Below, piece by piece: positions 14,000 through 34,422 of a stretch of 64,000 bases of DNA (the first letter of the stretch is position 1; every line of letters begins with the position of its first letter). A program made the position numbers and the translations under genes. Source of the DNA: Glutamicibacter sp. B1 (GTDB taxonomy: Bacteria > Actinomycetota > Actinomycetes > Actinomycetales > Micrococcaceae); the NCBI RefSeq assembly GCF_039602135.1, contig NZ_CP125942.1, forward strand, positions 682,001 to 746,000, read 5' to 3'. The notes below the pieces were generated by a model. The model did no database searches. It was given only the letters and a program-made list of their open reading frames with translations, and had not been told where the DNA came from.

Positions 14000-14131
14000 G
14001 CGAAGAATGTCCTTTCGAGTGCTACGACCATTGTGTCCGTTGGATCTCAGGGATGAAGAATCTGGTGACAAGGTCATTACTTCGCGTCTGTTATTCCAGA
14101 TTGAGGATCAAATAACCATTAGACTGAAGCT

Positions 14132-15502: not shown

Positions 15503-17071
15503 ATGGCAAGTAGCGTGAAGGAACAGCAACGAGCGGAACTGCACAAAACAATCTGGCAAGTGGCCAATGACCTTCGCGGTTCGGTGGACGGCTGGGACTT
15601 CAAGTCATATGTGCTGGGCATGCTGTTCTATCGGTTCATCTCTGAAAACCTCACCAATTACATCAACGATGGCGAGCGAGATGCGGGCTCGACTGACTTT
15701 GATTTCGCCAAGATGAACGACGAAGAAGCCGAATTCGCTCGTGAAGACATTGTCAGCGAAAAGGGCTTCTTTATTCGCCCTTCGGAACTTTTCGAAAACG
15801 TGCGTCAAAGCGCTGCAAAAGATGAAAACCTAAACCAGACCCTCCAAGGTATTTTCAAAGGTATTGAAGGCTCGGCGACCGGTACTAACAGCGAGGCCGA
15901 TCTCAAAGGCTTGTTTGATGATCTGAACGTCAACAGTACCAAGCTCGGTAACAATGTCGCGAAGCGTAACGCCAAATTGGTCAAGTTACTCGACGCGATC
16001 GGTGACCTTCCTCTGGGCGGCAAATTCTCGGATAGCACCATTGACCTGTTTGGTGACGCCTACGAGTACCTGATGCAGATGTACGCATCTAGTGCCGGAA
16101 AATCTGGCGGTGAATATTACACCCCGCAGGAAGTCTCTGAACTGCTAGCAAAGATCACCACGGTCGGTAAGACGCGAGTGAACAAGGTATATGACCCCGC
16201 CGCTGGTTCGGGTTCACTCCTGCTCAAGTTTGCAAAGGTGCTAGGCAAAGAGAATGTGGGCGGGTTCTATGGTCAGGAAATCAACCTCACCACCTACAAC
16301 CTGGCTCGTATCAACATGTTCCTGCACGATGTGAACTACGAGAACTTTGACCTGGCTCTGGGTGACACGCTACTTGAACCGCACCACTGGGATGATGAGC
16401 CGTTTGAAGCGATTGTCTCTAACCCTCCCTACTCGATCAAGTGGGAGGGCGATGCTAACCCAATCTTGATCAACGATCCACGCTATGCGCCGGCTGGCGT
16501 GTTGGCTCCTAAGTCAAAGGCAGACCTCGCTTTCACGATGCATATGCTGCACTGGTTGGCGACCAACGGTACGGCAGCGATTGTTGAGTTCCCTGGCGTG
16601 CTGTACCGTGGTGGGGCTGAACAGAAGATCCGTAAGTACCTGATCGACAACAACTACGTTGATACGGTGATTCAGCTTCCTTCTGATCTATTCTTTGGTA
16701 CCACGATAGGTACCTGCATCATCGTGCTGAAGAAGTCGAAGAAGACCAACGACGTGCTATTTATTGACGGTTCGGCTGAGTTCGTGCGCGGAGGCAACAA
16801 GAACAAACTGAGCGAAGCCAACCAGCAGGCTCTGCTTGATGCGTTCACGAATCGTGAATCTACGGAATACTTCACAAGACTCGTTGACAACAGCGATATC
16901 GCTACGAATGACTACAACATTGCCGTGTCATCGTACGTTGAGGCTGAAGACACTCGCGAAGTCATCGACATTATCGAGCTGAATACCAGAATCGAGCAGA
17001 TCGTAACTCGCCAGACTGAGCTGCGCACGTCGATTGATTCGATCGTTGCTGACCTGGAGGGCGTGAAGTGA
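15503..17071 (+). CDS. hsdM: Type I restriction-modification system, DNA methyltransferase subunit
   Basis: The start at 15503 follows AGGAGA with 6-base spacing; a TTG just before is less likely. The 522-residue protein has the N-terminal HsdM helical domain (about 1-170, DLRGSVDGWDFKSYVLGMLFYR). The SAM site DPAAGSGSLLL is at about 230 and the catalytic NPPYS motif of N6-adenine methyltransferases at about 305. It works as M2S to methylate adenine in a bipartite site and as part of the R2M2S nuclease. Its stop overlaps the hsdS start (GTGA), beginning a six-gene run of coupled genes. Confidence 0.96.
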   Translation: MASSVKEQQRAELHKTIWQVANDLRGSVDGWDFKSYVLGMLFYRFISENLTNYINDGERDAGSTDFDFAKMNDEEAEFAREDIVSEKGFFIRPSELFENVRQSAAKDENLNQTLQGIFKGIEGSATGTNSEADLKGLFDDLNVNSTKLGNNVAKRNAKLVKLLDAIGDLPLGGKFSDSTIDLFGDAYEYLMQMYASSAGKSGGEYYTPQEVSELLAKITTVGKTRVNKVYDPAAGSGSLLLKFAKVLGKENVGGFYGQEINLTTYNLARINMFLHDVNYENFDLALGDTLLEPHHWDDEPFEAIVSNPPYSIKWEGDANPILINDPRYAPAGVLAPKSKADLAFTMHMLHWLATNGTAAIVEFPGVLYRGGAEQKIRKYLIDNNYVDTVIQLPSDLFFGTTIGTCIIVLKKSKKTNDVLFIDGSAEFVRGGNKNKLSEANQQALLDAFTNRESTEYFTRLVDNSDIATNDYNIAVSSYVEAEDTREVIDIIELNTRIEQIVTRQTELRTSIDSIVADLEGVK

Positions 17072-18252
17072 GCCGTATCGATGAATTGATAGCGGAGCAC
17101 TGTCCGGCGGGCGTTAAACATAAAACCTTAGGCGACGTAGGCCAGTTTATTCGTGGTAATGGGCTGCAGAAGAAAGACCTTTTCCACGAAGGCTTTCCGG
17201 CAATCCATTACGGTCAGCTCCATACCCTTTATGGCGTCTCGGCGAGTGGGACATACTCTTTTACCACTCCTGAACTCGCCTCGAAACTACGTCATGCGCG
17301 CCACGGCGATTTGTTGATTGCAACTACCAGCGAAGACGATGAAGCCGTGGCCAAAGCTACCGCATGGCTGGGTGATACTGAAGTGGTCTTGAGTGGCGAC
17401 GCATTTATCTATCGCCATGAGCTGGAACCTCGTTATGTTTCCTACTATTTCCAGAGCCGTCAGTTTCAAGATCAGAAGCAGCGACACGTCTCAGGAACAA
17501 AGGTACGACGAATTTCTGGCTCATCGTTGGCCAAGCTAATTATCCCCGTTCCGCCGCTTGAAATTCAGCGTCATATCGCGGATATTCTTGATACTTTTAG
17601 TAAAATGGAAGCGGAGCTGGAAGCGGAGCTGGAAGCGGAGCTGGAAGCTCGGAAGCAGCAGTATGAGCACTATCGAGCTGAGCTCTTGAGCGAGAATACG
17701 GACGGCGTTTCTACGCCCTTGGGCGAGATCTTTGAAATGCGTGCTGGCACCCATGTGAAGGCATCCGAAATTTCTGATGACCAGTCGGAAACGCATCCTT
17801 ACCGCTGTTTTGGCGGAAATGGCGTACGCGGATACGTCAGTGGGTATAACTACGACGAAGACGTAGCGTTCATTGGCAGGCAAGGCGCGCTTTGCGGCAA
17901 TGTTCATCGTGCGCAAGGCAAGATTTATGCAACAGAGCATGCCGTGGTCGTTACCCCGAAAGCAGAAGTCGACATGTCGTGGGCATTCCACAAGCTGACT
18001 GAGATGGATCTGAACCAGTATAAGACCAAATCTGCTCAACCTGGTCTCGCCGTTGGTCGCATCAAAAAAATAGTTATTTCTCTTCCTAAGATCAAGGAAC
18101 AACGCCGCATCGTCGAGATCCTCGATAAGTTCGACGCGCTCGTAAACGACCTGAGCGTTGGTTTGCCTGCGGAGTTGGCTGCGCGTCGCCAGCAGTACGA
18201 GTACTACCGGGACCGACTTCTGACCTTCAAGGAGCTGGAGCCCGCATCATGA
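17068..18252 (+). CDS. hsdS: Type I restriction-modification system, specificity subunit
   Basis: A GTG start overlaps the hsdM stop. The 394-residue protein has two target-recognition halves, each followed by a conserved helix. The first half runs to about 170 (ending IPVPPLEIQRHIADILDTF) and the second to about 360 (ending KEQRRIVEILDKF). Between them three EAEL tetrapeptide repeats extend the central helix. Each half reads one part of a split DNA target. Recognition domains are too variable for a site prediction. Both halves look intact. It overlaps the next gene by ATGA. Confidence 0.94.
   Translation: MSRIDELIAEHCPAGVKHKTLGDVGQFIRGNGLQKKDLFHEGFPAIHYGQLHTLYGVSASGTYSFTTPELASKLRHARHGDLLIATTSEDDEAVAKATAWLGDTEVVLSGDAFIYRHELEPRYVSYYFQSRQFQDQKQRHVSGTKVRRISGSSLAKLIIPVPPLEIQRHIADILDTFSKMEAELEAELEAELEARKQQYEHYRAELLSENTDGVSTPLGEIFEMRAGTHVKASEISDDQSETHPYRCFGGNGVRGYVSGYNYDEDVAFIGRQGALCGNVHRAQGKIYATEHAVVVTPKAEVDMSWAFHKLTEMDLNQYKTKSAQPGLAVGRIKKIVISLPKIKEQRRIVEILDKFDALVNDLSVGLPAELAARRQQYEYYRDRLLTFKELEPAS
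17608..17643 (+). repeat. Three 12-bp tandem repeats in hsdS (EAEL)x3
   Basis: GAAGCGGAGCTG occurs three times in perfect tandem, encoding EAEL-EAEL-EAEL at the junction of the two halves of HsdS, followed by a partial unit (GAAGCTCGG). The same place in type IC subunits of the EcoR124 group carries TAEL repeats; two versus three units change the spacer length in the DNA target. Slippage here would keep the frame. Confidence 0.9.
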
Positions 18253-19091
18253 GTACCACCCCGGTGAATGTGCAGATACCTTCGGATACTGAAGCGCCGA
18301 TCATTGCTGACTTTGTCGAGCATGCTTTACGTGTTGCTTATTTTGATCGTCAGCATTGGGCTTCTCTACCTTCGAGCGATTGGGACGCGCCTGGCGTGTA
18401 TATCCTGATGACAGCCGACGGATCGAGTCGAGTGTATGTAGGGCAAGCACGCAAACTACGTGGCCGCTTGCAGCAGCACAACAACAAGGAAAAGCTTCCT
18501 TGGCGACGGGCTCTTGCGGTGAAGCGCGATACCACCGCCGGGTTCAACACTGCCGAAATCGGGTACCTGGAAGGCCGTATCGCGGCAGAGCTAAATGCGC
18601 TGCACCAGATCACGGTCATCGAAGGCCAGACGAGCGGTGACGAGACGCTGCCCAAGCACATGATGATCTCCTTGGATGCGTTCGTGAAGAGTATCCTCGG
18701 TGCTCTGCGTCTGGCTGGGCTGGATATCAGCCGGAGCAATCCTCAAACGCTGACCGAAGACGAGCAACCTACATCTGCGCCAGTGCCATCTAACAAGCCG
18801 AATAAAACCGTGACCGTTGCTGACTTGGTTTCCAGCGGTCTACTCCAAGCAGGCCAGGCACTATTCCTGAGCCAAGCTGGTAAAGAGGCCGAAGGCAGCG
18901 TCACCGCGGACGGAGAGATTATCGTTCGCGGCGTTTCCTATAAATCTCCGAGTACCGCAGCCGCAAAAGCCCTTGAGCTGCAATCCTCTAACGGTTGGAT
19001 GGCATGGAAGGTCGGCAGCCAGTCCGGTCCGCCGCTCGATATGTTGCGACAACAATGGCTAATACAACAAACGGAGGAGGCAGAAAAATGA
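18249..19091 (+). CDS. GIY-YIG nuclease-like protein with C-terminal DUF4357-like domain
   Basis: The 280-residue protein has a GIY-YIG-type core at about 49-110: PGVYILMTADG, then VYVGQARKLRGRLQQH and a downstream conserved Glu region (YLEGRIAAELNAL). The C-terminal part, VADLVSSGLLQAGQALF through GVSYKSPSTAAAKAL and NGWMAWKV, resembles the DUF4357 module often found in restriction-linked proteins. It sits between hsdS and hsdR with ATGA overlaps on both sides, so it is made with the complex. Its role in restriction is not established; it could be an accessory nuclease. Confidence 0.8.
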   Translation: MSTTPVNVQIPSDTEAPIIADFVEHALRVAYFDRQHWASLPSSDWDAPGVYILMTADGSSRVYVGQARKLRGRLQQHNNKEKLPWRRALAVKRDTTAGFNTAEIGYLEGRIAAELNALHQITVIEGQTSGDETLPKHMMISLDAFVKSILGALRLAGLDISRSNPQTLTEDEQPTSAPVPSNKPNKTVTVADLVSSGLLQAGQALFLSQAGKEAEGSVTADGEIIVRGVSYKSPSTAAAKALELQSSNGWMAWKVGSQSGPPLDMLRQQWLIQQTEEAEK

Positions 19092-22000
19092 TCGAAGCAC
19101 AGGCACGTAAATATGAGCCGATCGCCGTAAGCAACGAGAGCACTGTTGTCTCGGTCTATGATGCCGATCCATCCAAAGAAACTTCGTACCAGTCGGAATC
19201 ACAGCTGGAACGTGAATTTATTCACCGACTCGAAGGCCAGGCTTACGAGTATGTGGAGCTGACGAGTGAAGAACACCTCGTCGCTAATCTTCGCGCCCAG
19301 CTCGAAGCCCTGAACCGTTTCACCTTCTCGGATGAGGAATGGCAGAGGTTCTTCAAAGAACGGATCGCCAGTACCGGTGACGGAATCGTCGACAAGACGG
19401 TGCGCATCCAGGAAGATCACGTCCAGCTGCTGACTCGTGATGACGGCACGACGAAGAACATTACCCTGCTAGATAAGCAGAATATTCACAACAACCGTTT
19501 ACAAGTGATCAACCAGTATGCGGTGGATTGTGGCGAGGGCGGCGCAAGCTTCTCGAACCGATACGACGTGACCGTTCTGGTCAATGGCTTGCCGATGGTG
19601 CATATCGAGTTGAAGCGCCGCGGTGTACCGATTCGTGAAGCGTTCAATCAGATCGACCGATACCAGCGCGATAGCTTCTGGGCTGGCTCTGGTCTGTTCG
19701 AATACGTGCAGCTGTTCGTGATCAGCAACGGTACGCAGACGAAGTATTATTCGAACACCACTCGACGCCAGCATGTTGCCGATGCTACGGGCGCCAAGAA
19801 GAAGTCGAAGACGTCCAATAGTTTCGAGTTCACGTCGTGGTGGGCAGATGCGCAGAACATGCCGATTCTCGATCTGACAGCCTTCGGCAAGACATTCTTC
19901 GCCAAGCACACGCTACTAAACATCCTGACCCGCTACTGCGTCCTGACCAGTGACCGCCTGCTGTTGGTGATGCGTCCGTATCAGATTGTGGCGACCGAGA
20001 AGATCTTGCAGAAGATCGATATCTCGACAAACTACAAGAAGCTGGGCGCCGTTGATGCGGGCGGTTACGTCTGGCACACGACTGGCTCTGGCAAGACGCT
20101 GACCAGTTTCAAGACAGCACAGCTGGCTTCCCGTCTGGAGAATGTGAACAAGGTGCTGTTCGTCGTTGACCGCAAGGATCTGGACTACCAGACGATGAAA
20201 GAGTACGACCGGTTCGAAAAGGGCTCGGCGAACTCCAACACATCAACAGCGGTACTGAAGCGCCAGCTAGAAGATCCGTCGAAGAAAATCATCATCACGA
20301 CGATCCAGAAGCTCTCTACCTTTATCGCAAAGAACAAGGGTCATGAGATCTACTCAGGCCATATCGTGCTGATTTTTGATGAGTGCCACCGTTCCCAGTT
20401 CGGTGACATGCACACGGCCATTACGAAGGCGTTCAAGCGCTACAACCTGTTCGGTTTTACCGGTACCCCGATTTTCGCAGAGAACTCCGGTAGCGGTGGC
20501 AACCCGCAGTTGAAGACCACCGCCCAAGCATTCGGCGAGAAGCTACACACCTACACGATCAAGGACGCGATTACCGATCAGAATGTTCTTCCCTTCCGTA
20601 TTGATTATGTGAATACGATGAAGGTCGGTTCGGTCATCGACAAGCAGGTGTCGGCAATCGACACTGAGAACGCCTTGCTGTCACCTGTGCGGGTGTCTCA
20701 AGTGGTTTCGTATATTTTGGAGCACTTCGATCAGAAGACGAAGCGGGCCGTGGGCTACGCCCTGGGCGAGAAACGTGTTCGCGGGTTCAACTCCCTGTTT
20801 GCCACCGCCTCGATTACGGCAGCCAGGACGTATTACAACGAGTTCAAACGCCAGCAAGCGGAGCTCACACCTGATCGCCGGCTGAAGATCGCCACGATCT
20901 TCTCCTACGCTCCGAATCCAGACTCCGAAGACGGTGTGCTGGAAGAAGAAGGCTTTGAAACCGAGAACCTTTCCGGTGATGCCCGTTCGTTCCTGGAGTC
21001 GGCGATTGCTGACTATAACCAGATGTTCGGCACCAGCTACGATACGAGTTCAGACAGCTTCCAGAACTATTACAAGGACTTGTCGCTGCGGCTGAAGAAC
21101 CGGGACTTGGACATGGCCATTGTGGTGAATATGTTCCTGACTGGTTTTGATGCGACCACGATGAATACCTTGTGGGTGGATAAGAACCTGCGCTCCCACG
21201 GGCTGATTCAGGCGTATTCACGCACGAACCGTATTTTGAACTCGGTGAAGACCTACGGGAATATCGTAAACTTCCGTGACCTGGAAGAAGCCACGAACGA
21301 CGCGATTGCCCTGTTCGGCAACAAGGACGCTGCCGGGATCGTGCTACTCAAACCGTACCGAGAGTACTACGGCGAGTATGCGCAGAAGGTCTCTGACTTG
21401 TTGGAGAAATTTGTTCCCGGTCAGGTGATCGAGAGCGAATCCGGGCAGAATGAGTTCATCAAACTCTATGGCGAGATCCTTCGACTGAAGAACATCTTGA
21501 CCTCGTTCGATGAGTTTGCCGGAAACGAGGTGCTCACGGAGCGCCAATCCCAGGATTACCAGTCGGTGTATCTGGATCTGTGGAATGACCGCAAGAAGCG
21601 CGAAACTGGCGAGAAGGAGCAAATCACCGCCGATCTGGTGTTCGAGATTGAGCTGATCAAGCAGGTTGAGATCAATGTTGATTACATCTTGCTGCTTGTT
21701 CAGCAGTACCGTGAAGAACGAGGCGATGGCGACGATAAGGAGCTGCGCGCTGGGATCTCTCGCGCGATTGATTCCAGTCCTTCCCTGCGTAACAAGAAAG
21801 ACCTGATCGAGAACTTCGTCGACTCCGTGTCCGTGAATGGCTCGGTACAGGATGAATGGACGGCGTATGTGTACAAGCAGCGTGAGTGCGAGCTTGAGGA
21901 GATTATTGCTTCGGAGAATCTGAAGCGTGAGCAGACGCTGGGATTTGTAGACCTGGCGTTTGCTGACGGGCTCCTGCGAACGTCTGGAACTGAAGTCACC

Positions 22001-22132
22001 AAGATCTTGCCGCCCGTGTCACGGTTCTCGAAAGATATGAATCATAGCGAAAAGAAGCGCCGCGTGATCGAGAAGCTGACGGTGTTCTTTGAACGCTTTT
22101 TCGGCCTAGCGACAAGAGGTAAAAACGACTGA
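19088..22132 (+). CDS. hsdR: Type I restriction-modification system, endonuclease/translocase subunit
   Basis: The ATG at 19088 follows GGAGGAGG and overlaps the previous stop. The 1014-residue protein has an N-terminal PD-(D/E)xK nuclease with HIELKRRG at about 172-178. The superfamily 2 translocase follows: Walker A HTTGSGKT near 330, DECH box at about 431, and FTGTPI as motif III. The C-terminal helical part binds HsdM. It cuts unmodified DNA after translocation. The stop overlaps the first RT gene by one base (TGATG), which is unusual: the hsd operon simply continues into the RT genes. Confidence 0.95.
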   Translation: MIEAQARKYEPIAVSNESTVVSVYDADPSKETSYQSESQLEREFIHRLEGQAYEYVELTSEEHLVANLRAQLEALNRFTFSDEEWQRFFKERIASTGDGIVDKTVRIQEDHVQLLTRDDGTTKNITLLDKQNIHNNRLQVINQYAVDCGEGGASFSNRYDVTVLVNGLPMVHIELKRRGVPIREAFNQIDRYQRDSFWAGSGLFEYVQLFVISNGTQTKYYSNTTRRQHVADATGAKKKSKTSNSFEFTSWWADAQNMPILDLTAFGKTFFAKHTLLNILTRYCVLTSDRLLLVMRPYQIVATEKILQKIDISTNYKKLGAVDAGGYVWHTTGSGKTLTSFKTAQLASRLENVNKVLFVVDRKDLDYQTMKEYDRFEKGSANSNTSTAVLKRQLEDPSKKIIITTIQKLSTFIAKNKGHEIYSGHIVLIFDECHRSQFGDMHTAITKAFKRYNLFGFTGTPIFAENSGSGGNPQLKTTAQAFGEKLHTYTIKDAITDQNVLPFRIDYVNTMKVGSVIDKQVSAIDTENALLSPVRVSQVVSYILEHFDQKTKRAVGYALGEKRVRGFNSLFATASITAARTYYNEFKRQQAELTPDRRLKIATIFSYAPNPDSEDGVLEEEGFETENLSGDARSFLESAIADYNQMFGTSYDTSSDSFQNYYKDLSLRLKNRDLDMAIVVNMFLTGFDATTMNTLWVDKNLRSHGLIQAYSRTNRILNSVKTYGNIVNFRDLEEATNDAIALFGNKDAAGIVLLKPYREYYGEYAQKVSDLLEKFVPGQVIESESGQNEFIKLYGEILRLKNILTSFDEFAGNEVLTERQSQDYQSVYLDLWNDRKKRETGEKEQITADLVFEIELIKQVEINVDYILLLVQQYREERGDGDDKELRAGISRAIDSSPSLRNKKDLIENFVDSVSVNGSVQDEWTAYVYKQRECELEEIIASENLKREQTLGFVDLAFADGLLRTSGTEVTKILPPVSRFSKDMNHSEKKRRVIEKLTVFFERFFGLATRGKND

Positions 22133-23520
22133 TGAGCAAATATCCGTATTCGCTCCGCAACTTTACTGCACTTGCAGAACGAGAATCTCGGCGTGGAAAA
22201 GATATTTCCCACGTGGTTCCGTCTACTAAGCGCACAGTAGCAGCCCTCCGCGAACTCCGTGAAGCATACAAACTCGAGATTAAGGATCTGACTTTAGACA
22301 GCCCGGAGAGACTTGCCGCCCGCGAGAGGTATCAAGAAAAAAGACTTGACCTGCGAAAAAGTCTCGACAGCGTTCTCGAAGAATCCCTTCAGAACGCTCT
22401 GAACCATTTCCAATCTGCATTATCCAACCGTTCTTTCGAATGGGGGCTAGAAAATGGAGTGCTACTCGGCGAGCGCCAAACGTATCGGATAAGTTCCAGC
22501 CTTGATGTAGTGTTTCCGGGCCGAGAAGCTGCCACAATACTACGTGAGGCTAGTGGAACCCACATGGTAGGCAGAAACAGCATTGTTCGTGCCCTAAAAC
22601 ATTCATTGATGAAGCGATATGCCCATGCTGTCTATCGTCTCGATATCAGGAGTTTCTTTGATTCCATCCCGCACAAGAAGCTCCTGAACAGAATCGCTGA
22701 AGTTCGGAGCCTTGATCGAATCACGGGCGAACTTGTTGAGCGACTCCTGCATGAATATCAGTTATTGAAGGGCGAACCGATAGGCATCCCTCAAGGAGTA
22801 GGGGTCAGCTCTCCGCTGGCAGAACTTTATTTGAGCGATTTTGATCGCGCCATACGGTCATTTCCGGGCGTACTTTTTTATGCGCGTTATGTTGACGACA
22901 TAATCGTAGTTTTAGAGGGAGAAGAAGCCTGCAATCAGGTCGCTAGTAAGATCGATCTTCTTCTTTCCGAACTGGATCTTGAAGTTAATAAGTCAGACGA
23001 CAAGTTTGCGAAGATTGTTGCCGACAGTAATGGGGACTATTTAGAAGATGAGTCTGTCGAATACCTGGGGTACAAATTTATACGATCTAACGGCCGGCTT
23101 GTCATTGGCTTGACAGACAGGCGATCGAAAAGACGTAAGAATCGGTTAAATACTGCCTTTGAACATTGGCTCTCCAAAAACCCAACCCGAAAGACTGCAA
23201 ATTCGGGCGATGAGGGAATCCTTGTCGATCGTGTCAGATTCCTTGCAGGCAACACGTCGCTTAAGAACTCAAAAGACAATGTCGCTGTCGGCATCTACTT
23301 TTCGAACAGCTCACTGGATTCGGATGCCCAAGAGCTTAAAGATCTCGACGAGTTACTATCAAACTTGATTAAAACCAATAGATCACGAATGTCACCCCTG
23401 CTTCTGAAGCGGCTTCGTGCAGTATCATTTGTTCGTTCATTCCGCGAACGTACTTTTATTCGTTTTAGGCAGAAGCGCCTGGAACAAGTCGTCCAGTGCT
23501 GGAAGGCGGAACAATCGTGA
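22132..23520 (+). CDS. drt3a: Defence reverse transcriptase, Drt3a-like (first RT of a DRT3 module)
   Basis: A 462-residue reverse transcriptase. Motif A is YRLDIRSFFDSI with Asp 171, motif B is GIPQGVGVSSPLAELYL, motif C is ARYVDDIIVV with Asp 255 and 256, and motif D includes EYLGYKF. All catalytic residues are present. There is no maturase domain, intron RNA, integrase or retron msr/msd around it, which points to the 'unknown group' RTs of phage defence. Two tandem, unlike RTs are the hallmark of type 3 DRT systems (UG3 plus UG8), and this one fits the smaller first partner. Base composition is visibly more AT-rich than the flanks. The subtype rests on architecture and memory, not on a search. 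Confidence 0.75.
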   Translation: MSKYPYSLRNFTALAERESRRGKDISHVVPSTKRTVAALRELREAYKLEIKDLTLDSPERLAARERYQEKRLDLRKSLDSVLEESLQNALNHFQSALSNRSFEWGLENGVLLGERQTYRISSSLDVVFPGREAATILREASGTHMVGRNSIVRALKHSLMKRYAHAVYRLDIRSFFDSIPHKKLLNRIAEVRSLDRITGELVERLLHEYQLLKGEPIGIPQGVGVSSPLAELYLSDFDRAIRSFPGVLFYARYVDDIIVVLEGEEACNQVASKIDLLLSELDLEVNKSDDKFAKIVADSNGDYLEDESVEYLGYKFIRSNGRLVIGLTDRRSKRRKNRLNTAFEHWLSKNPTRKTANSGDEGILVDRVRFLAGNTSLKNSKDNVAVGIYFSNSSLDSDAQELKDLDELLSNLIKTNRSRMSPLLLKRLRAVSFVRSFRERTFIRFRQKRLEQVVQCWKAEQS

Positions 23521-25554
23521 AATACCAGCGTGCAAAACGCGACCCGCTCCGTGCACTGACCTCAGAGATGCTCCCGCATGAAGTCCCATTACCTTTCAGT
23601 GCAGCAGGCCTGTACCGTTTTCTCAAACGTCTTAAATTTGAGTGGATTTCGGGAAGAACAATTCACGGTCAACGCTAGACGCTTGGGTGAAGCGGAGCGA
23701 GTATGGCTGAGATTGATCTTTGATGGTGTCGAACTTGATGAAGTTGTTCTGGATGATGGTCGGATACGATTTGGTCGAGCAAAGCAGAGTCTCACGAGGC
23801 GACTTTTGCACCCATACAAGTTCCGTGCTCGACGAAACAACGGGAAGCTTCGTGAAATCACGGTTCCGCACCCCCAGTCCATGCTCGGCATGGCCTATTT
23901 CATTGATAAGTATCGAGACAGTATCCTTTACTTCACGAACCGAAGCAGTTACTCAATACGACATCCCCATCGGACAGCGCGAGTTCAAGCACGCCGTGAT
24001 AAAGCGTTTCTACGCGAGCTAGATTCGGAGGACTACGGACTCGAACAGTTTGGCCTTGAATACGACATAGTCACGTCATATTTTGCCTATAAGCGTTATA
24101 ACAACATCAATCGGTTCTACTCGTCACCCGAGTTTCGGGCTTGCGAACGTAAGTACCCATTGTTAATGCGTGCGGACATATCAAAGTGCTTCGATAGCAT
24201 CTACACGCATACAGTTGCATGGGTTTCGAATGGTCGAACTGCCAGCAAAATAGAGAAACGTGAGTCTACCAACGCTACCTTCGGCGGCTCTTTTGACCGC
24301 TACATGCAGTACTTGAACTATGCGGAAACAAGTGGGATCGTGATCGGTCCCGAGTTCTCACGCATATTCGCAGAGATCATCCTTCAGGAAGTTGATGTAC
24401 GAGTTGAGTGTGAACTTGAAAAGGGAGATCTCAAGCACGGTCAAGATTATGAGATCATGCGCTACGTTGATGACTACTTCGTGTTCCTCGCTGACTCATC
24501 GAACAGTGAGCGAGTAGAGAATGTCCTTTCGAGGCACCTAGCACATTTCAAATTGCACCTTAATGATCAAAAACAAGAGAGTCTCGAAACTCCTCTGAAA
24601 TCGCACATGTCAATTGCAAAGCTCTCAGTACGTGAAGGCCTTAGCGCGAGAACAAAGTGCGAGATCGAGACGGAGCCGGATAATAAGGCAGACCTATTCT
24701 TCTCTGCCCATAAAGCCATCATTGATTACAAGGCGATCTTGACAGATACAGAAAGACAACACGGCGAGCTGGCAAACTCTTATCTGTATGAACTGAGTAG
24801 GCGAGCAGAAAAGACGTTGTGCACTTATGGAGAGCATCTGGATGCTCTCGTTGAAGAGGGCGACTTGCGAAAGATCAAGTCAGCGCACAGTGCACTAATT
24901 AGTTACTTGGTCGCGGTCCTAGACGTGGCTGTGTTTGTCTACTCGGGCTCTCCGTCGGTCTCACATAGCCTAAAGCTATCAAGACTCATCGCAACAAGCT
25001 TAAGAGAACTTGAAGCCCGGAGCGTTGGCCACATTGAGATGCAGATTTTCAGGAGTAAGGTTCGTAGGGAGATAATTGCTCAGTTGTCTGCCGTACGTGA
25101 CCAGACAAGTTTTGGACCGCACACATTGAATCTGGTGGACTGTCTTTTCTATCTCGACCCAGAGACCAATGGCGCAACATTGCGACAGATTCTCAAACAA
25201 CGTGGTGCTACAACGGATTCCCTCGATGCATTCGCTTTGCTTACTATGTTGCGGTGCTGTGGCGATCGTGAATCTACTAAGGGTCTGAAAGCCGAACTTC
25301 TCTCTAGAGCTAAAGTTATTGTGGAGGCAGGTAAGACTGATCCTGATTTTGAGACTGAACGGGCAATTCTCCTGCTCGCTCTTCCGGACTGTCCTACTGC
25401 TTCTCCGGAAGAAGTCGGTGAGGTGACGGGTTTGACTGTTTCCGAAATTAAAGCGCTCCGAAATTCAAATGGGCCAAATATGCTCTTTGCATGGAACGCA
25501 AGCGACCACTATTACGAGAGGCTTCAATTGAAATCCTCTCAAATGGTATATTAG
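23517..25554 (+). CDS. drt3b: Defence reverse transcriptase, Drt3b-like, with an apparent N-terminal frameshift
   Basis: Translation should start at the GTG (23517) overlapping the drt3a stop, with GGAAGGCGGAA upstream. That frame gives RALTSEMLPHEVPLPFS, typical of the N-terminus of UG-group RTs, but stops at 23678. The rest (ATG 23578 onward, 658 codons) is in another frame. It has the usual PHPQSMLGMAYFIDKY-type region, motif A ADISKCFDSIY, and motif C MRYVDDYFVFL at about 24457-24489. Removing one base near AAATTT at 23634-23639 would join them as FLKRLNLSGFREEQF. This may be a real mutation, programmed +1 shifting or a read error. The long C-terminal helical region is intact. Confidence 0.7.
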
Positions 25555-25690
25555 GCATGCAGCCACGATGCACCTAAGTTTACTCACACGGAACAATCTT
25601 GGTGGGTAGGCTCACACACTGGCGCGAGAGGGACGAGCATCGTCGAATCCCTTGCAATTACCCAGCCTCGGCTGGGTAATTGCATTTTTG
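25555..25690 (+). ncRNA. Candidate DRT3 non-coding RNA with ACACAC tract
   Basis: This 136-bp segment follows the second RT directly and ends in a strong terminator. ACGATGC (25565-25571) pairs with GCATCGT (25637-25643), closing a large domain. A competing local hairpin, GACGA-gca-TCGTC, lies within 25631-25644. An open CACACAC tract (25613-25619) lies between the two arms, with a second CACAC at 25585-25589. Type 3 DRT systems carry an ncRNA, and I recall reports that an ACACAC stretch in it is the template for GT-repeat synthesis by Drt3a. The pairing and tract are visible; identity and borders are inferred. Confidence 0.55.
25654..25689 (+). terminator. Terminator of the defence operon / ncRNA
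   Basis: GCAATTACCCAGC pairs perfectly with GCTGGGTAATTGC around a CTCG-type loop, followed by ATTTTT. The 13-bp stem ends the hsd-RT transcription unit. Confidence 0.9.
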
Positions 25691-25953
25691 CCGACATTAT
25701 CAGTCAAACTCAAACTAGCCCTTCTATCCTTAAGTGTGCTGAGGTTCTAAGCGTGAGCAATTGAGGGTATAAGTGCTAAAAAAGTGTATAGGTGACGCGC
25801 CGAACTGGGCTCATCGACGCCCGCCCCACCCTTTTCGGACTCCATTTCCGTCATTTCAATTTAAATTCTGGTCGTAAATTGCGGCCCGATGGGTTCTGGC
25901 CTGGGACTGTCAGCCTAACGATGTCTAGCAGAAACTTTCGGTAGTGAATGAAT
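25691..25953. other. Gene-free spacer between defence operon and IS3 remnant
   Basis: No open frame of interest and no convincing RNA motif is seen. The segment is relatively AT-rich and marks the border between the operon and the insertion-sequence region. Confidence 0.6.
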
Positions 25954-25985: not shown

Positions 25986-26820
25986 TTACGCTGCCAGAGC
26001 GACAGACTCGATCATTCTAGCCTCGAATTAGATCGGGGTCATTTTCCCCAAACCTCGTTGCTTGCGCTAGCGGTGATACTTCCCCTCCAGCCATCCAATA
26101 ATGGCCAGGCGAAGTTGTTGGCGGGAGGACCACCAACGGCGGTCCAGCACGTTCTTCTGCGGCAGGCTGAAGAACGACTCCATGGCTGCATTGTCACCGG
26201 CTGCCCCGACCCTGCCCATCGAACCGACTAGCCCGTGACGCTCCAAGGCTTGAGTGAAGCTCTTTGACCGGAACTGGCTGCCACGGTCACTGTGGACCCT
26301 AACTCCGCTCGGGTGGCCACGGTGCGCTACAGCCATCTCCAGAGCATTGACCGCCAGGTGGGCCTTCATCCTCGAATCCATTGAATACCCCACGATTCTG
26401 TTGCTGAACACGTCCCTAATCGCGCACAGGTACAGCTTTCCTTCGCCCGTGTGGTGCTCGGTAATATCGGTCAGCCACAACTGGTTAGGCTGATCAGCGG
26501 TGAAATTCCGCCGCACCAAGTCATCATGCACCGGCGGACCGGCCGGAACGTGCTTACGTTGGCGTTGGCTGATCACCGAGCGGATCCCTGCCTTGCGGCA
26601 TAACCGCCAGACCCCGGCGCTCGGAAATTTGGTAGCCGGCGTCTTCCAAGTCATCAGCCAGCACACGGTACCCGCCCTCGGGATCTTCCTCGTGAAGCTC
26701 ATGCAGCTTGCCAATCAACTCCAGCTCTTCGATTTCCCGGGCAGAGACAGGGCTCTTCAACCACTTGTAATACGCCTGGGTGCTGAATCCCAAGACCCGA
26801 CACGCCACTGCCACTGCCAC
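25986..26820 (-). pseudogene. IS3-family transposase orfB, degraded
   Basis: The N-terminal part (26820-26554, ACRVLGFSTQAYYKWLKSP) and the catalytic part (up to about 26640 and on to 26067) are in different frames, joined near 26620-26640. The DDE residues are still there: WLTDITEH, VHSDRGSQF and DNAAMESFF. After GWLEGKYHR there are a TAG and later a TAA inside RKQRGLGKMTPI-FEAR. One frameshift and two stops make it inactive. Confidence 0.85.
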
Positions 26821-26875
26821 TTCGAATATGTTTCCTGCCTGTTCTAGCGGCTAATTCTTGATTGATGCGGGCCCA

Positions 26876-27166
26876 TTACTTTGGGGAACGAATATGCGAC
26901 TGGGAAAGGTAGGCCGCGGCCTTGCGCAGCACCTCGTTCTCCATTTCGAGCTCCCGGATGCGTTTGAGCGCTTGAGACATTTCTTTGCGTTCGTCAGCAT
27001 CAGAGGATGGGGTCATTCCGTGGGATTGGTAGCGGGCATCGCGGACCCACGTTTACAGCGCGGTCTTTGAGACTCCCAGATCCGCAGCGGCTTGCTTCTG
27101 GGATATCCCCGATTCGACGAGAGCGACGGCGTCCTTCTTGAATTCTTCGGTGAAGATTCTTGGCAT
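26876..27166 (-). pseudogene. IS3-family transposase orfA, interrupted by a stop
   Basis: Starts MPRIFTEEFKKDAVALVESG with a helix-turn-helix (SQKQAAADLGVSKTAL), followed by an in-frame TAA and then TWVRDARYQSHGM to LRKAAAYLSQSHIRSPK. It is otherwise a normal 96-codon orfA with a C-terminal leucine-zipper region. Confidence 0.85.
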
Positions 27167-27243
27167 GGTTTTTGTTCCTCCGTTTGAGCATAACCATAGA
27201 CGGGTTATGCGGTCGAAGTGTCAACCAAACCTACAGCAGACCC

Positions 27244-28940
27244 GAAACTCGCGTACCTCGACGGTTACGAACAAGCCATCCAACATGGTGAAATTGGCAG
27301 CTACCTGCGCTCCAACGGGATCTACTCCTCACAGATCGCTGAATGGCGCAAGCTACGCGACGCAGGCATCCTGGACGAAAATTCCACCACAATCACCGGC
27401 CAGTCCTCCCGGAGCGCCAAGAGTAAGATCAGCAAAGAACAAGCTGAAATCGCACAGCTCAAAAGGCAGTTAGCGGCGCCACGATGGCCCGCCACACTCG
27501 TGCGCAACGATTCCCAACAAGATCAGTGGACGCGCCTCGTCCAGCACCACCGAACAAACTCACCGCCGCTGAGGAAACAACGATTCTTGAAGCGTTGAAC
27601 AAAGATCGGTTCGTGGATCAGGCCCCGGAGCAGATCTATGCGGTACTGCTGAGTGAAGGAACGTATTTGTGTTCAGTGTCCACGATGTATCGGTTGTTGC
27701 GCCGGGAGAAGCAAGTTCAAGAGAGCCGGCGTCAAGCACGTCATCCTGCCCGAAAAGTCCCTGAGCTGGTGGCGTATCAGCCGGGTGAAGTGTTTTCTTG
27801 GGACATTACGAAACTCGCTGGTCCGGCTAAGGGAACCTATTTTGATGCGTACGTGATGATTGATATTTACTCCCGCTACATTGTTGACTGCGAAGTGCAC
27901 GCCAGGGAGTCGGGATTGTTGGCTGAATCGTTCATGAAAAACGTCTTTATCCAGCATCAAGTGCCGCAGATCGTCCATGCTGACCGAGGCACGAGCATGA
28001 CTTCGAAACCAGTAGCGTCGTTGCTTTCTGATTTGGATGTATTGCGGTCGCATTCACGGCCGAAAGTCAGTAATGACAACCCTTATTCCGAATCGTGGTT
28101 TAAGACCTTGAAGTATATGCCGGTGTTTCCTGAACGGTTTGGTTCGTTGGAGCACGCACGGGATTTCATGGGCAGGTTTGTCCAGGCGTATAACACTGAG
28201 CATCGTCATTCTGGGTTGGGTTTTCATACGCCTGCGGACGTGCATTTCGGGATGACTGGGCACATGGATGATCAGCGTTTAGCTGCGTGCCGAATAGGGC
28301 GAAATGGTACGCCCGTTCCGGCGACCGGGTACCGAGCGATTCTTAGGACCTGGTATTTCAATTCCTGCTAGAAGGTACCGCTGATGATGTGAACTTTGGT
28401 GCGTTAGGAGTCCATGAGGATCGCATCCGACCAACCCAACCACGTGGCCATCTAGCAGTCGGGCGTCGCACACAATGCGGTAGTTTCGTCGCTGCTGAAG
28501 GACGGCGAATCCTCGTGTCCGCACAACCTGGGAATCAGGGAATCATCGGGTCATCCGTCGATTGAAACTTGGGTAGCATCTCCGCGGCGCTTTCGGAATG
28601 GCAACGAGCTGCCACGCTGACAAATAAACCGGGTGTGCCACGGCCTTCTTTTTTTCAGCAAGTGAAGTTCCCGTTGACAGATTTGAGGCCGAAAGCTGGT
28701 TGAAGGATCCGCCTTGGAGCAGCGACAGTGGCGAACAGTACCAGGTTGGAAGAACAGTGGTTTCACATTGTAAGAATGGCAGTACCTTCAAGGATTATTC
28801 TGCACTGCGTTGGAGGCAGCGTGGGCTGAGCATCCTGAACGGTTTGGGAGGAACCGGTTACCGAAGAAAATGATGTTGCCTCAAGCGGCGTGGATTAATG
28901 AACCAAACATGCAGGAAGAAGGAAAGAAAATGGCCGTCTA
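27244..28940 (+). mobile_element. Second IS3-like element, truncated, deleted and interrupted
   Basis: The orfA part (27250-27470: LAYLDGYEQAIQHGEIGSYL, then SQIAEWRKLRDAGILDE) lost its 5' end to the neighbouring IS. OrfA and orfB are fused by an internal deletion near 27480. OrfB (27560-28290) keeps DDE stretches WDITKL, VHADRGTSM and NDNPYSESWFKTLKY. Its C-terminus is cut at about 28284, and its missing tail (LEAAWAEHPERFGRN to the stop at 28940) resumes at about 28799. So about 0.5 kb was inserted in it. Non-functional. Confidence 0.75.
28285..28798 (-). other. Insert within the second IS, possible DDE transposase fragment
   Basis: This block separates the body and tail of the IS3-like orfB. 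On the minus strand, 28524-28279 reads NYRIVCDARLLDGHVVG, which resembles the core of IS5/harbinger-type DDE nucleases, but no full gene remains. It is a nested insertion remnant; the family is uncertain. Confidence 0.35.
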
Positions 28941-29501: not shown

Positions 29502-30587
29502 CTACATTAATTGCTTATGCCGTTGTACACATCTGGGGCACTTTTCAACATTTTCATGGTCTGTAATGGGGACAAACCAATATCCGCACAAACTTTTGAT
29601 AGCAGAGCCTTCGACTTGAGCGTTCACTATTCCATCTTTATAGGTATAGTGCGATCTGAGCCCGATTCGAAGGCCTAGTGGTTGGAAATCAAGGGGAAGT
29701 TCATGATTGGTTTCAAGCAGTTCAGCATTGTCGATTGCGCTCGGAGGAACGATGGCAGAGAAGGCATATGAATTCTCTACGTACGTCGTAGAAGTCCACG
29801 CCTCAGCATCGTCGTCTATTGCGGCCCGAGCGTACTGACCAGCCAAGTCCACGGAAGCAACCTCGGCTTCGTTGAGAATTGTTGCGGCAAGAAAGACTTC
29901 GTCTAACTCCGTAGCGCCTTCTTTGATTCGTCCGATTATTGATACAGAGAGGCTGCCGATAGGCTCACTCTCAGAAAATCTTGACGGCTTAGTAAACTCC
30001 ATTGTTACGGTTTTTCCTACATGACGCCTAGCTTCGGCTAGTAATGCCAAAGTGGAACAGTGTATTTGCAAATACCATGCATCCTGAGCTGTAATCTTTT
30101 CATCGATTTCCAGCAGAAGCTTGTCGGCCTTTGCTGGTAAAAACGAGCTCGGGCCATTGTTGCTCACTTGGTACATGAAGCTTTTATAGAAATCGCTATT
30201 GTCGCCATCCCGGCGAATCCCTGCCGCGCATAGCCAGGCTGAATCTGAAGAGACACTAGAATGATCTGTTACGGCGCCTCTCCATTGCTGGGTTTTCTGC
30301 TTCCACCAATGCGGATTCGAAAGACCTGAAATGCTTTCTAGCTTCGAGGGATCGTATTCAGAAGTGAAGTGATTGCTGAAGTGCCGGAGTAGAGGGTGCG
30401 ATAGCGCATTTAGTCGTGGAAACACTCGAACGTGACGCGCAAGTTGAGATTTAGAAATTTCATCTGCAAAGTGTTTGCTGACGAGGTTCCCGAGTGATGA
30501 GGCAGCCCTCTGGTGATCCGCATTGGTCCAACCAGAGGTCAAATCCTCAATCAAGCATCTAAGCGTTACACGTGGCTCCATGGTCAT
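29502..30587 (-). CDS. Unknown protein with C-terminal DUF3039-like zinc motif
   Basis: The 361-residue protein (an ATG two codons in is equally possible) has an N-terminal helical half and a middle part that I do not recognise. It ends with CGYWFVPITDHENVEKCPRC. That C-x3-W-x-P...C-x2-C arrangement resembles the C-terminus of the actinobacterial DUF3039 family and probably binds zinc. It starts 34 bp after an excisionase-like HTH gene and is surely its operon partner. In similar pairs the second gene is often a PIN toxin; here the partner is different. Base composition is AT-rich, in line with transfer. Confidence 0.55.
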   Translation of the reverse strand: MTMEPRVTLRCLIEDLTSGWTNADHQRAASSLGNLVSKHFADEISKSQLARHVRVFPRLNALSHPLLRHFSNHFTSEYDPSKLESISGLSNPHWWKQKTQQWRGAVTDHSSVSSDSAWLCAAGIRRDGDNSDFYKSFMYQVSNNGPSSFLPAKADKLLLEIDEKITAQDAWYLQIHCSTLALLAEARRHVGKTVTMEFTKPSRFSESEPIGSLSVSIIGRIKEGATELDEVFLAATILNEAEVASVDLAGQYARAAIDDDAEAWTSTTYVENSYAFSAIVPPSAIDNAELLETNHELPLDFQPLGLRIGLRSHYTYKDGIVNAQVEGSAIKSLCGYWFVPITDHENVEKCPRCVQRHKQLM

Positions 30588-32505: not shown

Positions 32506-34422
32506 CTAGGCTGGGAACGGCCAGCCCTCATTCTTGACCCGTTCGCGCCAGTAAATAGCCGCAGTTGTTCCGCCTTGCAAAGCGATGAACTCATCAGTCC
32601 GCTCAGCGAGCGCGTTTTGAGGGTCGGTCATTTCCACGAAGGACTCCAGTGCAATGTACAGGGCCGTCCCGCTTGTGAACTCTGCGAAGGAACGGACGGA
32701 CTCCACCACAGTGAAGGCTGCCGGGTTGCCATGTACGAGTGCGTTACGGAGACGACGTCGACGTGCCTCGAGCACGGCGCCTTCATCCTCGTACTCTGAA
32801 ATGAGAGCGCTGTATTTTGCGTGATTGCTGATGCTGTCGAACATGCGCTGAATCCAAGCGCGTTCGTGCTCGAGGCGACATAGGGAAAGAAAGTCGTCCC
32901 GCCGATCGTCGAGGAACAGGATCCATGGCTGCTTGGGATGACTCGAATGCCACTCCACGGTCAGACTATGATGCAGTGCGTGGTCCACCCCGCCACCAAG
33001 GAGGCACATCCTGGCTGCCACCTCAAGGTCGCTCAACCAGCGCGCATGTGCCCACTTCTCCCCGAGTAACTGGAAGAGGTCGTTCGGATCCATTGCCGCG
33101 TGAGCGGCAATGTGTTGCACGATCCTGTCAGAAAGCGGAATTACGCTGCTGATGTCGGCTTCTGATGGTTTGCGAAGTGCCATGTCCCGGCTGAACGGAA
33201 GGTCAAGCGTTGTCTGCACCTCAATCGCTGCCGCGAGAAAGCGCGGCAACTGCTGTTGAGCGAGGGCGTTGGCAATCCGGGGGCCGTGTGCATTAATCGC
33301 ATCCGACGTCATGCCCGCACCGTAGGTGTCGTCGGGGAAGCCAGTGCGATCCCAGACGGCGCTGTGTCCAAAGCTGGAGGGAACGCCGGATCGCACGACT
33401 ACATGCTCGGTGAGCTGCGGGCGGATGCCTCCGGAGCGGTGCAGTGCTACGTTGATGATGATGTCCACGATGGCACTCGCGCGTTCAACTGCTCCGGCAG
33501 CCGTGGTGCTACCAAGATCGACGCGCACTAGGGTCTCGACGTCGCCCTTCTCGTCTGCCAGCTCCGGGACACGGAAACTGAAGCCGTCTTTGACGATATC
33601 CCAGAGTTCTTCCTTGTGGTCGAACTCCTGCCGTCCCGGTTGTGCATTTGGGATTGCCCAGAGCGGCTCGTAGAACGACACTCGCCCAGCCGTCATTTCT
33701 ACGCCTACACGACCCTTGTACCCAAGCCAGACCGTGACCGGTTCGATAGTCGCAGGCGTCACGACATAGGCCCGCGCCTGTTCGAGGCGGTCAGTGTATG
33801 AGGTGTCCGCTCCGTCAAAGGACATCTCCTCTGGATCCCGACCGAACGCCATGATCGACACGAGTCCTCGGACCATTGACTCGGCCTCTAGTCCTCGGTG
33901 TCGTAGCTGATCTGTGAGAAGATCGGCGATCGGCCTGTATTCCCGGCCTTCCAGCGCGCGGTTCTGCGCGACGGCTACTAAGTCATCCCAACTTGCGATC
34001 ACAGCATCGTCGGACTTGAGCGCGGTGAGAAGATTTTGAGTCGCCGTCAGCATGGCTACCCATTGGGGTGCAACACGCGAGGCTCCGGGTGGTTGCGAAA
34101 GCACTGCAGTGCCACTAAGAGATAACGCGGCAAAGCTGGCTTGGAATGCTGCCAGCTCGTTCGCGATGTGCGAGCCGAGGTGCACACCGAGCGCGCCAGC
34201 CGACTGCGCGATGTCCTGGTCTAGCGAGTTACGGTTGGCTGTCTTCTTCCATGCATCCACCCCGCTCGCTAACTCCACCCAACGTAGGATCTCTTCGGCT
34301 ACCGCAGTAAGCGGCAAGATCGTTGTCGATGGATGGCGCAGATCTAGTGACGATACCAGCGACTTCACCCAAGCAGGTGTGTTCTGTGCCCAGTGGTTAC
34401 TGACGTTGTAGTCGATCATCAT
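32506..34422 (-). CDS. Large unknown protein with C-terminal HEPN-like motif
   Basis: The 638-residue soluble protein has no signal peptide or membrane segment. Most of it is unfamiliar: a helical N-terminus, and a middle region with VTVWLGYKGRVGVEM. Near residue 575 it has RRRRLRNALVHGNP, an R-N-x3-H pattern in a helical setting that fits the Rx4-6H active site of HEPN ribonucleases, many of them toxins or abortive-infection effectors. It stands alone among transposase remnants, on DNA of ordinary composition. The frame is long, intact and uninterrupted, so it is probably under selection. The function is inferred only from the motif and setting. Confidence 0.6.
   Translation of the reverse strand: MMIDYNVSNHWAQNTPAWVKSLVSSLDLRHPSTTILPLTAVAEEILRWVELASGVDAWKKTANRNSLDQDIAQSAGALGVHLGSHIANELAAFQASFAALSLSGTAVLSQPPGASRVAPQWVAMLTATQNLLTALKSDDAVIASWDDLVAVAQNRALEGREYRPIADLLTDQLRHRGLEAESMVRGLVSIMAFGRDPEEMSFDGADTSYTDRLEQARAYVVTPATIEPVTVWLGYKGRVGVEMTAGRVSFYEPLWAIPNAQPGRQEFDHKEELWDIVKDGFSFRVPELADEKGDVETLVRVDLGSTTAAGAVERASAIVDIIINVALHRSGGIRPQLTEHVVVRSGVPSSFGHSAVWDRTGFPDDTYGAGMTSDAINAHGPRIANALAQQQLPRFLAAAIEVQTTLDLPFSRDMALRKPSEADISSVIPLSDRIVQHIAAHAAMDPNDLFQLLGEKWAHARWLSDLEVAARMCLLGGGVDHALHHSLTVEWHSSHPKQPWILFLDDRRDDFLSLCRLEHERAWIQRMFDSISNHAKYSALISEYEDEGAVLEARRRRLRNALVHGNPAAFTVVESVRSFAEFTSGTALYIALESFVEMTDPQNALAERTDEFIALQGGTTAAIYWRERVKNEGWPFPA

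Follow-up and report, generated by a model that had tools for sequence, protein, structure and literature searches.

A frame-broken type 3 DRT module at the 3' end of a type I restriction operon of Glutamicibacter

Type 3 defense-associated reverse transcriptase (DRT3) systems and type I restriction operons that carry a second defense module have each been described before. According to the available part of the report on the Escherichia coli system EcoDRT3 (PMC13174585), a noncoding RNA (ncRNA) with a conserved ACACAC template sits downstream of drt3b, Drt3a together with this ncRNA gives poly(dTdG), and Drt3b gives poly(dCdA); residue E22 of EcoDRT3b gates dATP, and its substitution abolishes defense. 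The same text states that RecBCD limits the DRT3 product in E. coli and that blocking RecBCD with Gam leads to cell arrest. Among type I operons, enteropathogenic E. coli carries DarTG2 between hsdS and hsdR (PMC12255303, available text) and PrrC is silenced by its genetically linked type I enzyme (PMC2610378, available text); in the portions accessible to us, "guilt-by-embedding" is in print for cargo inside such operons. Here we analyze a stretch of 64,000 nucleotides (nt) from Glutamicibacter sp. B1 (contig NZ_CP125942.1, positions 682,001 to 746,000; below, the window), in which two reverse transcriptase (RT) genes directly follow a type I hsdR gene. We regard it as likely that this is a DRT3 module lying in a 3' cargo slot of the operon, with a mainly genetic link to HsdR and with one of its genes broken in frame.

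The locus shares with the DarTG2 and PrrC operons that a second defense module is tied to type I restriction; it differs from them in that the cargo is DRT3 and stands after hsdR, the place where related operons hold AAA_13, Shedu/GajA-like, or AbiP2 genes. It shares with EcoDRT3 (PMC13174585, as far as available; PDB 9z6y and 26cz) the order Drt3a, Drt3b, ACACAC ncRNA. Unlike EcoDRT3, the module overlaps hsdR and has a frame-broken drt3b; the sequence of its ncRNA is different, with an apparent covarying pseudoknot, and an AdnAB-like pair but no RecC match was found in the host. The literature searched, which leaves most subscription papers outside, held no report of DRT3 in a type I operon slot. 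Since cargo in type I operons is known and DRT3 was not reported there, the locus would represent a known system in a so far unreported form of a familiar arrangement, adding DRT3 to the type I operon cargos at a defined border, the hsdR stop codon.

Operon layout and the two reverse transcriptases

The genome is a single contig of 3.6 Mb, and the operon genes of the window all lie on the plus strand, as follows.

15503-17071, plus strand: hsdM, type I methyltransferase (PADLOC MTase_I, 5.7e-133; Pfam N6_Mtase and HsdM_N)
17068-18252, plus strand: hsdS, specificity subunit (PADLOC Specificity_I, 3.7e-99), joined to hsdM by a GTGA overlap
18249-19091, plus strand: gene for a GIY-YIG and RAMA protein (PADLOC candidate PDC-S14), joined to hsdS by an ATGA overlap
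19088-22132, plus strand: hsdR (PADLOC REase_I), joined to the GIY-YIG gene by an ATGA overlap
22132-23520, plus strand: drt3a, RT1 (PADLOC Drt3a, 3.6e-93; NCBIfam NF041747, above cut-off), with YVDD at 22888-22899
23517-23651, plus strand: drt3b, N-terminal piece, read in the GTG frame and containing the equivalent of E22 (dA gate) at 23580-23582
23578-25554, plus strand: main open reading frame (ORF) of drt3b, RT2, in another frame (PADLOC Drt3b, 2.9e-142, from residue 75; NCBIfam NF041748, above cut-off)
25555-25652, plus strand: DRT3 ncRNA, matched by covariance model R1
25614-25619, plus strand: ACACAC template, 59 nt past the drt3b stop (template role as given in the available part of PMC13174585)
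25653-25684, plus strand: intrinsic terminator, made up of a T run and a 14-pair stem that no other stem in the scan exceeded in length

The start of hsdM was placed at ATG 15503, which is preceded by GGAG, and hsdM, hsdS, and hsdR are intact ORFs of the expected families. An earlier reading of this DNA, made from its letters alone (the original prediction), had described two unlike RTs translationally coupled to a type I operon, and much of that description holds. The two RT ORFs each contain YVDD (in RT2 at 24463-24474), the GTGA, ATGA, and ATGA overlaps listed above and a TGATG overlap between hsdR and drt3a are all present, and the RT part is AT-richer, with a GC content of ~0.47 to 0.49 against 0.51 to 0.55 for the hsd genes. 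At third codon positions (GC3) the values are 0.47 and 0.49 in the RT genes versus 0.70 in hsdR, and the drop falls at the hsdR/drt3a border. The proposed GTGA junction between RT1 and RT2 has to be given up: GTG 23517 is out of frame with the RT2 ORF and opens only 53 codons before a stop, the junction having been misread because drt3b is frame-broken. The overlaps and the terminator are consistent with a single transcript. Between 14.5 and 26.5 kb we found five promoter-like sites against 8.8 expected in shuffled sequence, no more than chance.

The profile comparisons identify the pair as type 3 DRT (UG3 plus UG8), as had been proposed. RT1 scored 293.8 bits against the Drt3a equivalog NF041747 (cut-off, 200) and the main RT2 ORF, on its own, scored 425.2 bits against the Drt3b equivalog NF041748 (cut-off, 350); among the NCBIfam models listed, only these two passed their own cut-offs, and PADLOC agrees. 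The original prediction had named a best score to group II intron, retron, or other UG classes as evidence that would count against it. RT1 did give 86.4 bits against a group II RT and RT2 gave 122.1 bits against Drt4, each below cut-off; the ncRNA and the gene order match DRT3, and with PADLOC, the NCBIfam cut-offs, and the ncRNA model match in agreement, we rule these identities out, their chance being negligible. Solved relatives are PDB 9z6y/9z6z (Drt3a and Drt3b) and 26cz, the Drt3b structural match with the best E-value, whose PDB name says only RNA-directed DNA polymerase and which we take to be EcoDRT3b because its numbering agrees with PMC13174585.

Residues shared with EcoDRT3 include the catalytic YVDD, the equivalents of R71 (23851-23853) and R241 (24361-24363), and a C-terminal tyrosine (25549-25551), all within the main drt3b ORF. 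The R241 equivalent and the tyrosine are invariant in all 38 rows of an alignment (A1) chosen from 120 relatives; the tyrosine is the final residue of the window's Drt3b and the last but one, Y666, in EcoDRT3 (tail 622-667). Across the 120 Drt3b relatives listed, R[YF]VDD occurs in 120, a VY end in 119, SR[IV]FAE in 116, and P[YFHW]E within the first 40 residues in 110.

The drt3b gene of this assembly is frame-broken, because its N terminus and its remainder match relatives in two different frames. The first 45 residues of the GTG-frame piece match the Drt3b N terminus in 57 of 60 relatives (P0001-P0060; the remaining three, P0053, P0057, and P0059, are shorter entries), the best at 95.6% identity (P0001). 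The main ORF is 93.6% identical to P0001 over 644 amino acids (aa), and its similarity begins only at residue 15 or 26 in the 14 relatives shown (P0001-P0014). Independently of the ORF comparison, a Drt3b profile search of the genome gave two matches in two frames. In the 57 relatives the N-terminal stretch is in one frame with the remainder, and the same break is seen in none of them. The copy would thus be either a pseudogene or a sequence error, two cases that look alike here; that both pieces are similarly close to P0001 points to a recent change or to such an error. The same absence of decay is what would favor programmed ribosomal frameshifting across the break, a reading we judge very improbable given that the relatives have a single frame. 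Since the break severs the dA-gate residue from the RT (the Glu codon equivalent to E22, placed by alignment, lies in the severed piece and not in frame with the RT), we predict that the window's DRT3 copy does not work, barring an error in the sequence at the break. The missing in-frame Glu bears on whether this copy works and not on its kinship with DRT3; intact drt3b copies occur in relatives. On E. coli plasmid CP083496 (L264:5704-7747), the drt3b region is annotated as two hypothetical proteins and is possibly another broken copy.

The hsdR 3' end and its link to DRT3

The window's HsdR is found in 3 of the 18 genomes of the genus (the window's included), at 95% identity in G006 (locus L252) and 93% in G004 (L253). 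DNA similarity between the window and these two congeners ends within the last 12 codons of hsdR (at 22121 and 22095), and from this end point, the GC3 drop at the same border, and the other genes standing there in relatives (below) we read the 3' end of the operon as a swap slot for defense cargo into which DRT3 would have been placed. Neither congener gave a Drt3b match, in a profile search at an E-value of 1e-3 or in a further search at 1e-20. G004 carries there instead an 890-aa PDC-S06/AAA_13 ATPase with a TTG start and a 4-nt overlap with the hsdR stop (L253:11061-13733); in G006 the next ORF of at least 90 aa starts ~230 nt past hsdR and has no family match. One fixed, layered unit of restriction and RTs, as originally proposed, does not agree with these two operons.

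Across the order, 44 of 347 genomes, counting the window's own, carry an HsdR relative at an E-value of 1e-100 or better, and we took 34 HsdR loci from other genomes. An ORF starts within 150 nt after hsdR in 25 of the 34. The 43 first or second ORFs after hsdR gave one match to the Drt3b profile, an AbiP2 RT (L212), and none is Drt3b. When PADLOC and Pfam were run on eight more of the 43, hsdR proved to be followed by SduA and then a GajA-like protein (L202), by PDC-S54 and then PDC-S06 (L197), by an unnamed ORF and then a Ppl/SMC-like ORF (L194), by AlbA_2 (L207), and by an ORF without a PADLOC or Pfam match (L216). ORFs starting 20 nt inside hsdR in L201, L203, and L205 look like spurious extensions and for that reason were not counted as cargo. 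The AbiP2 RT of L212 (5413-6996, minus strand) stands 31 nt past an hsdR of the same family and represents a second kind of RT in this position. In Scrofimicrobium canadense (L042:1271-4310), Mrr-like (mREase_IV) and PDC-S05 genes lie between hsdM and hsdS, and the operon thus carries cargo at more than one place.

We then compared 99 related DRT3 loci, the best 80 of 274 in genomes plus 19 viral ones (L114 and L121 have identical Drt3b). The 274 came from an alignment query; a search with the window's own Drt3b alone gave no confirmed relative. Type I genes were sought near all 99 loci by tblastn at an E-value of 1e-5 with the window's HsdR, HsdM, and HsdS as queries, and 94 of the 99 showed no relative of the window's type I HsdR. 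In four, hsdR stands immediately upstream of DRT3 on the same strand: L042, where hsdS, hsdR, drt3a, and drt3b are linked by ATGA overlaps, and L068, L092, and L120, where drt3a follows hsdR at wider gaps and without overlap. Other restriction genes also precede drt3a: in L090 a type III res gene stands 3 nt ahead of the earliest possible start of drt3a, and in L080 a type IIG enzyme stands 56 nt ahead. The nearest named Drt3 relatives (L039, L040, L041, and L043) had no type I gene within 10 kb by tblastn. These neighbor counts are minima, because 74 loci, counting the window, had an ORF listed upstream on the same strand and PADLOC was run on 20. Among the eight best plasmid matches, for which the gene tables are incomplete, HsdR is encoded two genes upstream in Acetobacter oryzoeni, hsdM-hsdS lie downstream in Zymomonas, and no overlap occurs in any of the eight. 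A DNA search of G952 for the hsdR-drt3a region gave nothing; drt3b of G952 runs off the contig end.

The coupling of drt3a to hsdR, which had been put forward as new, is real as an overlap in the window, and it is neither unique, since L042 has the same kind of overlaps, nor obligatory. The gene order, too, may be conserved in part: it is coupled in L042 and adjacent with gaps in L068, L092, and L120 of the 99. It was not detected in the two close congeners or in the nearest named Drt3 relatives, and the lack of a conserved gene order that had been named as evidence against a joint unit is thus largely what we find beyond these few loci.

L042 is the closest counterpart. It shares with the window the hsdS-hsdR-drt3a-drt3b order and a drt3a overlapping hsdR, and it has ACACAC 49 nt after drt3b, with drt3b in one frame. 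It differs from the window in the Mrr-like and PDC-S05 genes between hsdM and hsdS, in having no GIY-YIG match, and in an hsdM ORF limited to the C-terminal half of the methylase region; identities to the window are 71% for HsdR, 39% for Drt3a, and 46% for Drt3b. In a quick Drt3b tree (105 of the 106 loci used below, L162 being too short), the window groups with four hsd-less DRT3 loci and L042 falls outside on a long branch (quick-tree values, 99 and 100). In a quick HsdR tree, from which the 93% and 95% congeners without DRT3 were left out, the window and L042 are sisters (96). The history may have been two gains or one old unit followed by losses.

Readings of the link between restriction and DRT3

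In the reading we favor, a transcript from the hsd promoter would run through hsdM, hsdS, the GIY-YIG gene, hsdR, drt3a, and drt3b and end in the ncRNA and terminator, as the gene order suggests. By what is known of the family, Drt3a would copy ACACAC into poly(dTdG), and Drt3b would make poly(dCdA) from its C-terminal tyrosine by way of Glu and Arg side chains. We found no match to the RecC family in the host genome (among 14 control genomes, E. coli alone matched). The host does have two adjacent helicase-nucleases closest to PDB 6ppj, 6ppr, 6ppu, and 7sjr, which we take to be mycobacterial AdnAB. With no RecC match and an AdnAB-like pair present, AdnAB would take the place of RecBCD and keep the duplex low. 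The link to HsdR would be mainly genetic, that is, shared expression and a backup behind restriction, and since the slot would be swapped between strains, we would not expect a dedicated HsdR-RT machine. In a host without RecC, DRT3 must be kept in check in another way than the published one based on RecBCD.

Several observations weigh against this reading. The two congeners match the window in the operon alone and not in its flanks; cargo swapping at a single chromosomal site was accordingly not observed. The closest Drt3b (P0001, 94%) and the closest HsdR (P0241, 95%) come, among the matches listed, from the same source; P0001 and P0241 are probably on one contig, and the linkage then probably persists at close range (between P0002-P0007 and the 120 HsdR matches listed, there was no sign of a shared contig). 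Given that the window and L042 are sisters in the HsdR tree, the hsd-DRT3 unit may instead be old and shared, with losses since. A promoter inside hsdR also remains conceivable.

Two further accounts of the link deserve weighing. The operon and DRT3 might be mere neighbors in a defense island, with the overlap arising from cargo inserted flush with hsdR and a link through transcription only. We give this a substantial chance, somewhat short of even; it shares the identity of the module with the reading favored above, so that the two are not exclusive. Differing cargos at the same hsdR border and the frequent occurrence of DRT3 without adjoining restriction genes speak for it, whereas the 1- and 4-nt overlaps between hsdR and drt3a in two genera may signal selection, either on translational coupling or on insertions that avoid polarity. 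A closer partnership, our own hypothesis, would have restriction come first and DRT3 second, with a single nuclease common to both as the link: the many double-strand ends of phage DNA cut by HsdR would occupy AdnAB or RecBCD or provoke its inhibition, DRT3 products would persist, and the cell would arrest. That RecBCD loss or Gam derepresses DRT3 (PMC13174585, available part) favors such a two-stage unit, as do the overlap of drt3a with hsdR in two actinobacteria, the looser arrangements in L068, L092, and L120, and the type III res gene of L090; the 94 of 99 DRT3 loci lacking an HsdR relative, the congeners that retain the hsd operon without DRT3, and the host without a RecC match all count against it, and we consider it unlikely. 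Similarly doubtful is its extension, in which the hsdR stop in this actinobacterial type I family would be a general plug-in port for abortive backup modules (DRT3, AAA_13, Shedu/GajA-like, and AbiP2 genes). With DRT3 there, ends made by restriction would draw off the AdnAB that otherwise destroys the poly(GT/AC) product, and the RT stage would be armed by restriction itself or by a phage inhibitor of end degradation. Close natural comparators are at hand, namely, hsd operons with DRT3, with an ATPase, and with nothing coupled, and they offer a clean test of cooperation between restriction and repeat-DNA synthesis.

The template RNA, its apparent pseudoknot, and the surrounding island

The original prediction had overlooked the ncRNA and terminator (25555-25684), which lie just inside the end of the region it covered. 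Model R1 was built from six actinobacterial relatives with the window excluded, its helices having been picked after the window was seen. Against the 64 kb it gave a single match up to an E-value of 10 (25555-25666, plus strand, 48.4 bits, E = 4.1e-16), and it detected hardly any distant RNAs (best E-value, 0.016; 24 sources). Rfam at gathering scores gave no match across 12 to 30 kb. Of the 106 loci in which the drt3b stop was located (the window among them; L112, which ran off, was left out), 103 have ACACAC in the 300 nt that follow drt3b, versus 2 of 105 for a 300-nt control stretch taken from the gene itself, and in 86 loci it lies 20 to 95 nt after the gene. The window, too, has an ACACAC ncRNA downstream of drt3b. 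Much of the z of -4.95 obtained for the fold of 25540-25692 comes from the terminator; without it, the fold (25555-25655) is not unusual (z = -1.41, with 18 of 200 shuffles equally good).

Three helices can be drawn in the RNA.

25559-25560 plus 25562-25564 with 25621-25625, plus strand: helix a, enclosing the 5' hairpin and the template (actinobacterial support from conservation only)
25565-25571 (ACGATGC) with 25637-25643 (GCATCGT), plus strand: helix b, crossing helices a and c
25629-25633 with 25648-25652, plus strand: helix c, whose loop contains the 3' arm of helix b

Helix b joins the first bases past the drt3b stop to a stretch beyond the template, and because the arms run in the orders a, b, a', b' and b, c, b', c', it crosses both other helices, which makes the structure a pseudoknot. 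We scored contiguous stems, since RNA duplex energies with loops proved too noisy for the long-range helix and were abandoned (69 of 10,000 permutations; cognate pair best in 3 of 56 rows). The search regions were fixed after the sequences had been looked at, and the 56 rows (14 actinobacterial, 42 other) are 86 RNAs minus near-copies. For helix b, cognate partners paired better on average than shuffled ones in the 14 actinobacterial RNAs (reached in 0 of 20,000 permutations) and in the 42 others (2 of 20,000). The cognate pair ranked first in its row for 7 of the 14 and for none of the 42. In the actinobacteria the best stem starts 8 to 14 nt past the stop, a near-constant place with differing letters. 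For helix a, whose arms flank the template, the 42 non-actinobacterial RNAs give support (0 of 20,000 permutations); among the 14 actinobacterial RNAs it showed no covariation support, with 19,700 of 20,000 permutations reaching its score and noncognate pairs not beaten.

In a seven-row alignment (A2), whose rows are related and on whose own sequences the arms were chosen, helices a, b, and c together pair in 96.5% of 114 cells, and 8 of 17 pairs change on both sides. None of 500 shuffles reached four of the five measures; 101 of 500 reached the fifth, further pair types. Sliding by one to three columns lowered pairing to 34 to 49%. The DRT3 ncRNA thus appears to contain a covarying pseudoknot that is strongest in actinobacterial copies. 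The word "pseudoknot" is absent from the available wording of PMC13174585, and the literature searched held no report of one for DRT3, its matches concerning DRT2 and DRT10. A covarying pseudoknot in a template RNA is an item for structural biologists.

Around the operon, the dehydrogenase on its left (13079-14077) is, among named records, 86% identical over its full length to that of Glutamicibacter JL.03c and 89% identical over 92% of its length to that of Glutamicibacter halophytocola. In congener L254 both flanks match and ~4.9 kb replaces the window's 21.7-kb stretch (about 14.5 to 36.2 kb), which places the operon in a variable island. One Drt3b relative (P0002, 87%) and one dehydrogenase relative (P0178, 76%) come from the same source, in which DRT3 may occupy the same chromosomal place. 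Island proteins at 32506-34422 and 29502-30587 (both minus strand) had no PADLOC match at an E-value of 0.001. Right after the DRT3 terminator, at 26067-28371, lie transposase-like integrase ORFs, judged by eye, on both strands.

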